Assembly: GCF_947302755.1 (NCBI RefSeq)
Contig: NZ_CAMYWM010000005.1
Span: forward strand, 1-49,931
Origin: an uncultured Anaerovibrio sp.
GTDB taxonomy: Bacteria; Bacillota; Negativicutes; Selenomonadales; Selenomonadaceae
DNA: 49,931 bases
Direction: 5' to 3'
This document shows, in pieces, positions 22,907-48,069 of the stretch. The notes under the pieces are model-generated. The model was given only the letters and a program-made list of their open reading frames with translations. It was not told the DNA's origin and searched no databases. Numbering within the stretch: the first letter of the stretch is position 1; each line of letters opens with the position of its first letter. The position numbers and the translations under genes were made by a program.

Positions 22907-22913
22907 TAAACAG

Positions 22914-23090
22914 ATGGTCATACTTAGTGTCACGACGGTCATGAGTCTAAAGCTGTTTGTCCGATTTATATAGTGAAAAAAATCATAACTCGCTTCGCTC
23001 AAACAAATGATTTTTTTCACTAATATTAAGGTGCGGACAAAAGGGCTTCTTAACGACTCATGCCCTAAGTGTTCCACTAAGTATGACCAT
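22914..23090 (+). repeat. long intergenic hairpin R1 copy A with conserved apical loop
   Basis: outer arms ATGGTCATACTTAGTG/CACTAAGTATGACCAT (16 bp); inner TAGTGAAAAAAATCAT/ATGATTTTTTTCACTA; loop AACTCGCTTCGCTCAAAC 22987-23004. Confidence 0.9.
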
Positions 23091-25519: not shown

Positions 25520-25707
25520 GTGGGTCCTGTCATGGAATAGGCCATTCATTTGCTTCGCTAGTGCCACATCAATTTATTTATCGGCTTAAAGATGGTATGG
25601 ACGGACTTAGTAACCGTCCGCCACATCACAGTGGCTTCGATGAGTTTATTACAGATGTGTCATTTTTGAGCTTCGCATGCTTCATGTCCTTATTCCATGC
25701 CACCCAC
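25520..25707. repeat. long imperfect intergenic hairpin with strong GGACGG/CCGTCC apical stem
   Basis: outer arms GTGGGTCCTGTCATGGAATA vs TATTCCATGCCACCCAC; apical GGACGGacttagtaaCCGTCC. Confidence 0.7.
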
Positions 25708-25740
25708 AGTTATTGCACATAAGGACAGGGGGGCTTACTG

Positions 25741-25888
25741 GAGCACTTAGGTCATTAATCCCTAAGAAAGGCTTTTTGTCCGTACATCAATTTTAGTGAA
25801 AAATTTCATTTGTCTGAGGGAAGGGTGTTATGATTTTTTCACTATTTAAAGGGGACAAAAAATTAGGGCCATGACCGTCGCGACAGTA
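25741..25888 (-). repeat. long intergenic hairpin R1 copy B (opposite orientation to copy A, diverged loop)
   Basis: TTTAGTGAAAAATTTCAT/ATGATTTTTTCACTA stem; reverse complement shares CGACGGTCATG, TTTGTCC, ATAGTGAAAAAATCATAAC and CAAATGA blocks with copy A. Confidence 0.75.
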
Positions 25889-25977
25889 ACCACCACCTGC
25901 CCCTTTACATGAGAACCATAAATAGAAATTATGAGAATATTAATATGAAATTATTTTCATAAATTTAGTAGAATTGT

Positions 25978-39441: not shown

Positions 39442-39450
39442 AATGTTATA

Positions 39451-39626
39451 TAGTGGCATTTGATTTTCGCTCGGTTTCGCTGCTAAAACTATTTTTTATT
39501 TTTAATTAGCATTGGTAAAAATCCAAACTCGCTACGCTCAAACAATGGATATTTTCCCAATGTGCAGGATTAAAAAAATAGTTTATTTACGCATCGAAAT
39601 CTAATGCTCAAATCAATTTGCCACTA
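39451..39626 (+). repeat. long intergenic hairpin R1 copy C with conserved loop
   Basis: TAGTGGCA/TGCCACTA outer; AAACTATTTTTT/AAAAAATAGTTT; ATCCA/TGGAT; loop AACTCGCTACGCTCAAAC 39526-39543. Confidence 0.9.
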
Positions 39627-39656
39627 CAATACTATATTTGAATAGGAGCGATAAGT

Positions 39657-44370: not shown

Positions 44371-44448
44371 GACTCAGTAGCTCAGCTGGATTAGAGTACT
44401 TGACTACGAATCAAGGGGTCGGGGGTTCGAGTCCCTCCTGGGTCACCA
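44371..44448 (+). tRNA. tRNA-Arg (anticodon ACG), CCA encoded
   Basis: GACTCAG...CTGGGTC acceptor; CTTGA ctACGaa TCAAG anticodon arm; GGTTCGAGTCC T arm; ACCA 3' end. Confidence 0.95.
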
Positions 44449-46470: not shown

Positions 46471-47462
46471 TGATAGTTTCCTGGAACGTAACAAATGCCT
46501 GTAATATGTTTTGTGACCATTGCTACCGGGAGGCGGGCTGCAAGGCGGAGGAGGAGCTTTCCACCAGTGAGGCCAAGACCCTGCTGGAGCAGATTGCCAA
46601 GGCAGGCTTTAAGATAATGATCTTTTCTGGCGGTGAGCCCCTTACCCGACCGGATATTTTGGAGCTGGTGTCCTATGCCACCTCCCTGGGCCTTCGCAGT
46701 GTATTTGGTACCAACGGTACCCTGATAACCCTGGAAATGGCCCGGAAGCTGAAGGAGGCCGGAGCCATGGGTATGGGAATTTCCCTGGATTCCATGGACA
46801 AGAAAAAGCACAATGAGTTCCGTAAGTTTGAAGGGGCCTGGGAAGGCGCCGTTCAGGGCATGAGAAATTGCCGCGCAGTGGGACTGCCATTTCAGATTCA
46901 TACCACTGTAATGGACTGGAATAACCACGAGCTGGAGGCCATCACGGACTTTGCTGTGGCAGAGGGGGCGGTGGCCCATCATTTCTTCTTCCTTGTGCCA
47001 ACGGGCCGGGCCAAGACCATTGAGGCTGAGTCCCTGCGGGCCGAGCAGTATGAGGAAACCCTTACCCGCATTATGAAGAAGCAGACTGAGGTGGACATTG
47101 AGCTGAAGCCTACCTGTGCTCCCCAGTTTATGCGTATTGCGGCCCAGATGGGGATAAAGACCCGCTTCCGCCGGGGCTGCCTGGCCGGTACGGCCTACTG
47201 TATTATCAGCCCACGGGGTAAGGTTCAGCCATGTGCATACCTTAACATGGAGCTGGGGGATGTGCGGGAGATGCCCTTTGACGAGATTTGGAGGAATAAT
47301 GAGGTGCTGAACACCCTGCGGACCCTGGAATATAAGGATGGCTGCGGAGAATGCGAGTTCAAGCGAGCCTGCGGCGGATGCCGGGCAAGGGCCGCCTTTT
47401 ATAACGACGGGGACTATATGGCCGAGGAGCCATGGTGTCTGTATCATGGACGTAAAGGGTAA
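46470..47462 (+). CDS. radical SAM/SPASM protein, NirJ2-like
   Basis: SWNVTNACNMFCDHCYREAG, FSGGEPLTRPD, GCGECEFKRACGGCRARAAFYNDGDYMAEEPWC; overlaps upstream stop. Confidence 0.82.
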   Translation: MIVSWNVTNACNMFCDHCYREAGCKAEEELSTSEAKTLLEQIAKAGFKIMIFSGGEPLTRPDILELVSYATSLGLRSVFGTNGTLITLEMARKLKEAGAMGMGISLDSMDKKKHNEFRKFEGAWEGAVQGMRNCRAVGLPFQIHTTVMDWNNHELEAITDFAVAEGAVAHHFFFLVPTGRAKTIEAESLRAEQYEETLTRIMKKQTEVDIELKPTCAPQFMRIAAQMGIKTRFRRGCLAGTAYCIISPRGKVQPCAYLNMELGDVREMPFDEIWRNNEVLNTLRTLEYKDGCGECEFKRACGGCRARAAFYNDGDYMAEEPWCLYHGRKG

Positions 47463-47475
47463 TTAAATAATAAAA

Positions 47476-47550
47476 GGCAGGGACTACTGTCTGTAGCGTC
47501 GGTCATGAACCTAAAACATGTCCTAAATGCTACATCCAGTAGTTCCTGCC
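47476..47550. repeat. short hairpin, apparent deletion derivative of R1 (lacks central stem-loop)
   Basis: GGCAGGGACTACTG/CAGTAGTTCCTGCC arms; TGTAGC/GCTACA; internal GTCGGTCATGAACCTAAA resembles copy A GACGGTCATGAGTCTAAA. Confidence 0.75.
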
Positions 47551-47581
47551 ATTCTATTATTGCAATATCTTATAAAAAAAG

Positions 47582-47766
47582 GGGCAGAGGCAGATTGTCT
47601 TTCACACGGTCACGCTGCTAAAACTTTTTCTTGCTCTATTAAATAGCGAAAAAAGTCGAAACTCGCTACGCTCAAACATCGACTTTTTTCACTAAAGCGT
47701 AGTATACCAAGAAAAAGATTTCTTCACGCAGCGATGCCGTACGTTCAAGCCCATCTACCTCTGCCC
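47582..47766 (+). repeat. long intergenic hairpin R1 copy D1 with conserved loop
   Basis: GGGCAGAGG/CCTCTGCCC; CTTTTTCTTG/CAAGAAAAAG; GAAAAAAGTCGA/TCGACTTTTTTC; loop AACTCGCTACGCTCAAAC 47660-47677. Confidence 0.92.
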
Positions 47767-47790
47767 ACTTTTAGATATTTCATTAATAAT

Positions 47791-47991
47791 AGGTCAGTGA
47801 CTGTTGACTGAAGCATTAGGGCGAAGGGCGTTAATGAACTCTTTTTTGCCATACTGGAATTAGCAGGAAAAATCAATTGTTTGAGCGAGTCCTGAAAGGA
47901 CGTAGCGAGTTTTGATTTTTCCTGCTATGTAATTAATAGGCAAAAAAGTTCTAGCCCTGAGACCCGAGCTGAAGTCAACAGTCACTGACCT
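47791..47991 (-). repeat. long intergenic hairpin R1 copy D2 (loop on minus strand) with extra mini-hairpin in the loop; T-run at right end
   Basis: AGGTCAGTGACTGTTGACT/AGTCAACAGTCACTGACCT 19 bp; TAGCAGGAAAAATCA/TGATTTTTCCTGCTA; GTTTGAGCG[AGTCCTGAAAGGACG]TAGCGAGTT. Confidence 0.92.
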
Positions 47992-48069
47992 TTTTTTGTG
48001 TTGAAATAACCTTATTACCTGCTATAATGTAAAGTAATATTGGTAATTTGCTTGTTTACGGGAGATTTT

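Follow-up and report, generated by a model that had tools for sequence, protein, structure and literature searches.

The intergenic hairpins that recur in the 49,931-nucleotide stretch of DNA analysed here (the window) are probably REP-like, but non-REP, extragenic DNA hairpins of the rumen bacterium Anaerovibrio and of Selenomonas, and their relevant form would be one DNA strand, always of the same polarity, folded on itself. They point to a new kind of single-stranded DNA repeat rather than to an RNA gene or a terminator. Several roles had been put forward for them in a preliminary description of this DNA, and apart from a REP-type DNA behaviour of the copies these roles were not supported. 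If our reading is true, extragenic palindromes can be under long-term selection as fixed-polarity single-stranded DNA with no resident Y1 transposase, and dozens of elements of ~200 bp that flip in place between close strains constitute a natural system in which to measure hairpin repair, correction and inversion in bacteria.

The window comes from an Anaerovibrio draft genome of 2.66 Mb in 214 contigs (G000), and its relatives were taken as A. lipolyticus DSM 3074 (G007), A. lipolyticus LB2005 (G015), Anaerovibrio sp. JC8 (G012), Anaerovibrio sp. RM50 (G013), UBA3726 (G002) and Selenomonas ruminantium ATCC 12561 (G031). All five hairpins previously described in the window are present, and shuffled sequences fold far worse. 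Element H2 (47582..47766, plus strand) is a hairpin of ~185 bp with the apex AACTCGCTACGCTCAAAC on the plus strand at 47660-47677; its minus strand is the better-folding one, and orthologs are found in G007 and G012. Element H3 (47791..47997, minus strand) is a hairpin of opposite orientation with a mini-hairpin inserted in its apex at 47879-47911, and in G002 it is inverted with its inner stem deleted. The predicted folding energy is -71.7 kcal/mol (z -8.7) for 47575-47775 and -99.4 kcal/mol (z -10.6) for 47785-48000, with 0 of 200 shuffles folding as well in either case. The remaining elements lie at 22913..23090 (plus strand, exact apex at 22987-23004), 39446..39632 (plus strand, exact apex at 39526-39543) and 25730..25905 (minus strand, degenerate apex at 25812-25829 that is better preserved in sister species). 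The claim that four copies carry the same terminal loop therefore stands for three, where the loop is exact (22987, 39526 and 47660); it is interrupted by a small hairpin insert (GAGCGAGTCCTGAAAGGACGTAGCGAG) in 47791-47991 and degenerate in 25741-25888. A covariance model search of the window retrieved exactly these five hairpins, all of them in the training set, with E values from 4e-18 to 3e-12. We also recognized a reduced sixth member, H1 (47476..47550, plus strand, GGCAGGGACTACTG...CGGTCATGAACCTAAAACATG...), which retains the outer stems and CGGTCATG...CTAAA and has had its inner stems and apex deleted; the element at this locus is full length in G013 and inverted in G015. Directly beside the 25730 element, a second dispersed repeat of about 185 bp occupies 25522-25708, with 83% matches elsewhere in G007 (C7, C19) and G015 (C4). 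The sole Rfam match in the window is a tRNA gene at 44371-44445.

Trained on 29 family copies, the covariance model puts the copy number in G000 at about 60. Under stricter filters, the four sister Anaerovibrio genomes G002, G007, G012 and G015 contain 33-42 copies apiece, G013 contains 6 and Selenomonas ruminantium 23, and several other Anaerovibrio species contain none. The search for further copies that had been suggested was thus borne out, as were the proposed homology of the copies, their conserved apex and their covarying stems. The apex AACTCGCTNCGCTCAAAC alone occurs 16 times in G000, versus one match per strand for a reversed control. The hairpins have a median length of 209.5 nt and a common architecture, in which an outer stem encloses a 5' CTAAA opposite a 3' TTCTTAACG, then the inner stem (about 12-16 bp) and the apex; every copy has stem sequences of its own, arranged as two or three stems between which lie asymmetric internal loops of shared sequence. 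The outer stem has no shared sequence, its terminal columns holding 0.02-0.25 bits. Comparison with Rfam at gathering and lax thresholds returned no family, with weak sub-threshold hairpin matches only, and none of the papers covered by a literature search carried the motif. A plasmid search yielded one weak place, in Ilyobacter, and a search of viral contigs yielded three stretches only, whose short-stem pattern is related. Within G000, 12 of 61 copies have a nearest paralog of at least 95% identity; tandem copies or contig overlaps account for some of these. Around 1440-1720 of L065/L066, a hairpin element is 99.5% identical in two different contexts. A different repeat (GCCTTCCCCTTGCGACGCGAATGAAATGAGCTAGTCCC...) flanks it, with a GCTAGTCC...GGG core similar to the sequence inserted in the enlarged apices.

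The diverged stems remain paired within each copy, as had been noted, and their covariation is strong. Because stem lengths differ, RNAalifold on a MAFFT alignment of all copies resolved the inner stem alone, and each copy was subsequently examined arm against arm. Of the inner-stem cells, 97.2% pair; two-sided changes number 35 cells versus 8.0 in shuffles, and the covariation score is 0.382 versus 0.116 for shuffled sequences, a value reached by 0 of 500 shuffles; sliding the partner arm abolishes the signal. Cores of orthologous copies in the same orientation are 95.4% identical versus 87.8% for their mostly coding flanks between G012 and G015, and 91.0% versus 85.2% between G000 and G012. 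In such orthologs we counted 14 double changes at paired positions versus 1.2 expected, of which 11 are compensatory (from one standard pair to another), and on the folding strand the single changes comprise 31 G·T and 15 A·C. The count of compensatory changes was confined to same-orientation orthologs because inversion shifts the arms, and the P values are optimistic since neither the copies nor the ortholog pairs, drawn from overlapping genome pairs, are independent. As far as sequence comparison can show it, the fold of one strand has been maintained at fixed loci over times that separate species.

If our reading is true, covariation among dispersed hairpins, however strong, does not by itself imply an RNA, and it is the asymmetry of mismatches that reveals which strand folds. 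When one arm was aligned with the other, strand-blind, in each of 103 copies and single mismatches with three matches on either side were counted, the strand bearing AACTCGCT showed 77 C·A versus 12 G·T mismatches (60 versus 12 by distinct contexts) and 55 C·T versus 11 G·A; on the opposite strand, the prevailing mismatches are therefore seen as G·T and G·A. Random transitions in a stem would give C·A and G·T equally, so the asymmetry means that the fold of the opposite strand is the one kept. The C·A to G·T ratio is 31:5 where the flanking genes run with the element and 18:1 where they run against it, and 53:8 in Anaerovibrio and 24:4 in Selenomonas; an equal bias in both gene orientations and both genera argues against an origin in read-through transcription or in strand-biased mutation. 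With DNA parameters, 140 of 142 copies also fold more stably from the strand opposite AACTCGCT. On this evidence the folding molecule appears to be the strand opposite AACTCGCT, with the apex GTTTGAGCGNAGCGAGT.

Stem covariation, a G·U-type tolerance on one strand and a conserved apex with internal loops would likewise be expected if every copy were transcribed, from its GTTTGAGCG strand, into a dispersed structured non-coding RNA; indeed, the GNA-type apex described below and the G·T tolerance fit RNA as well, which counts against the single-stranded DNA explanation. However, upstream promoters on the GTTTGAGCG strand are not enriched (mean best score 8.22 versus 8.06 for shuffled sequences), the mismatch bias is the same in both gene orientations, copies flip in place, and Rfam holds no match, and we consider such an RNA distinctly unlikely. 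The earlier suggestion of selection on a folded DNA or RNA can thus be narrowed. Maintenance of a fold holds for one strand, and single-stranded DNA is favoured over RNA as the folded form because both gene orientations show the same asymmetry and there is no promoter signal.

The positions of the copies do not agree with the statement that all lie between transcription units. Every copy in the window lies between same-strand genes, and among the 46 copies in G000 with both neighbours called, 37 lie between co-directional genes (26 with the genes running with the element and 11 against it), 6 between convergent genes and 3 between divergent genes. A copy usually lies a few tens of bases past a stop codon, and copies frequently occur in convergent pairs. 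A bidirectional transcription terminator or insulator, as had also been proposed, would be compatible with the A/T runs at the ends of H2 and H3. In contrast, a GC-rich stem followed by a T-run, as in an intrinsic terminator, is not the pattern of the family: runs of at least four T after the stem are found in 18 of 106 and 11 of 110 copies, that is in just 10-17%, with 6% in the control. With most copies also lying between co-directional genes, we regard this role as extremely improbable.

The last of the proposed roles, in which a Y1/RAYT (HUH) single-strand transposase would move the hairpin as a non-autonomous element in the manner of a REP/IS200-type miniature element, is suggested by the single-strand polarity that TnpA-REP uses (PMC8266576), by the convergent pairs, which look like REP doublets, and by the near-identical copies in two contexts (L065/L066, 99.5%). 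However, the Y1 transposase family PF01797 is absent from G012, G013 and G015, all of which are 99-100% complete and bear elements (two of them being element-rich), the RAYT model NF047646 finds nothing over its cut-off in seven genomes, and the Y1 genes examined have no apex motif within 1.5 kb. The length of ~210 nt versus 20-40 and the lack of a constant terminal tag also speak against it, and we judge mobilisation of this kind very unlikely.

The family behaves somewhat as REP sequences do. REPs of the GTAG and CGTC superfamilies are palindromes of 20-40 bp with GTAG or CGTC at one end, and the CGTC repeats are likewise without a dedicated enzyme (PMC3733652). The Anaerovibrio hairpins share with REP/BIME sequences and their RAYT (TnpA-REP) an intergenic location, many copies, imperfect hairpins with required mismatches, strand-specific recognition of a single strand and inverted doublets (PMC8266576, PMC3733652). 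We thus find an intergenic, high-copy, strand-specific hairpin, as expected of a REP, and find neither a tagged palindrome of 20-40 bp nor a cognate RAYT flanked by repeats. Unlike a REP with its GTAG or CGTC tag, the Anaerovibrio repeat is a nested hairpin of ~210 nt with no such tag, its stems differ in nearly every copy, and its genomes are without RAYT. The two missing REP features make the hairpins a new variant of extragenic palindromic repeats, REP-like but non-REP. The constant terminal inverted repeats and target duplication of classical MITEs (DDE transposase) were not found either, the family having no conserved outer ends and the one locus compared in empty and filled state no evident duplication. 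In integron attC sites, a long hairpin combines variable stems with conserved unpaired features, and one strand is active. The Anaerovibrio copies resemble them in all of these respects, but the integron integrase TIGR02249 is below cut-off in all seven genomes and the copies have no cassette-array arrangement.

From the comparison of orthologous loci it emerges that copies turn around where they stand, that inner hairpins are lost from them or added to them, and that whole copies come and go. Orientation differs in 6 of 14 orthologous copies between G007 and G015, whose flanks are about 97% identical, in 10 of 17 between G000 and G007, in 4 of 15 between G000 and G012, in 2 of 10 between G012 and G015 and in 1 of 15 between G000 and G015, and base-level comparison reveals clean inversions of 189 and 160 bp within nearly identical flanks. 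The rate is uneven, with the excess concentrated in the one lineage of G007, and since these are draft assemblies, inter-arm segments might be mis-oriented. The G007 genome (loci L314-L333) has far more inverted copies than its relatives, which may reflect a lineage-specific change in hairpin processing. Within the window, the 22913..23090 element has flipped in place in G007 and G012, is present in reduced form in G002 and G013, and has been lost from G015. A reading of the G015 locus as a pre-insertion site, with flank copied into the arm, was rejected, as the state in other species shows this loss to be a deletion. The 39446..39632 site is empty in five species (G007, G015, G013, G012 and G009), with its flanking genes nearly abutting, and in G002 its element is inverted and stands next to a second element; comparison of the empty and filled site (39442-39637) showed no evident target duplication at this one locus. 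At the locus 47462-48040, several of 13 other species are without any element. The orthologous locus in G010 and G004 (L156, L157) holds a different insert with AACGGGTGCTAAG...TCCTTCCTC in the same intergenic place.

Inversions of sequence between arms are known from other hairpins. Template switching homogenises arms and inverts spacers (PMC8604942, PMC8794818), and the hairpin-associated minute inversions of chloroplasts and template-switch spacer inversions resemble the Anaerovibrio flips in that inter-arm sequence flips in place, recurrently (PMC6342102, PMC8604942), but those reported are 2-9 bp long and the flips seen here involve structured elements of 160-189 bp. The hairpins might be functionless ancient palindromes, in which template switching alone keeps the arms complementary and produces the flips, and the conserved blocks are relics. 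The arm homogenisation and spacer inversion that template switching yields, the report that short inverted repeats of proteobacteria are more conserved than their surroundings (PMC8604942), and the flips, inner deletions and tandem copies that we observe all lend themselves to this account. Template switching alone would, however, explain neither the strand asymmetry nor an apex common to other phyla, and we consider it unlikely as a full explanation.

In the single-stranded DNA reading that we prefer, the folding strand would read ...CGTTAAGAAA-stem-GTTTGAGCGNAGCGAGTT-stem-TTTTAG... and would be exposed as a single strand of fixed polarity in replication or repair. A polymerase that switches template from one arm to the other could then restore complementarity and also invert the element, so that the pairing of the arms would be kept through selection, template switching or both. 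The conserved apex and internal loops may nucleate the fold or be read by a putative protein, and the copies presumably spread as non-autonomous DNA in the manner of REPs.

The apex of the folding strand, GTTTGAGCGNAGCGAGT, contains GCGNAGC, in which N is a variable, free base. GCGNAGC is a GNA DNA mini-hairpin of exceptional stability, the rule being that the loop is closed by at least two G-C pairs (PMC4686876). Most simple apices follow this rule with GCGNAGC, as do 30 of the 38 copies with an enlarged apex; the minority variants outside GNA are AAA, AAC and GAC, which weigh against the explanation that we prefer. Sheared G·A pairs could extend the GNA apex. The likeness to d(GCGNAGC) mini-hairpins thus lies in the same heptamer with N free. 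The mini-hairpin itself is a structural motif and not a genomic repeat family, whereas the Anaerovibrio instance lies within a natural dispersed repeat.

The apex AACTCGCTNCGCTCAAACA with a 5' CTAAAA, often with a 3' TTCTTAACG, was also found in other Negativicutes, Bacteroidetes, Iodobacter, Cocleimonas and Saccharibacteria, and the apex with CTAAAA in Anaerococcus and others. In 56 of 64 such stretches from other taxa, the same strand is the more stable. These hairpins have different stems and outer parts from those of Anaerovibrio, and common descent is a candidate explanation only. One may speculate, with low confidence, that they belong to one class of DNA hairpins, mobile or domesticated, that extends across phyla and is defined by a GNA apex and CTAAA/TTCTTAACG internal loops; a conserved protein would read these hairpins as single-stranded DNA of one polarity, and they would flip in place at a high rate. 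In other Negativicutes (L018-L022, L032, L033, L041 and L042) there is a further type of large hairpin, CTTTTGGCATTGCC...CTAAAATCCGT-apex-ACGGATTTCTTAACG, which has the apex and internal loop in common with the Anaerovibrio family.
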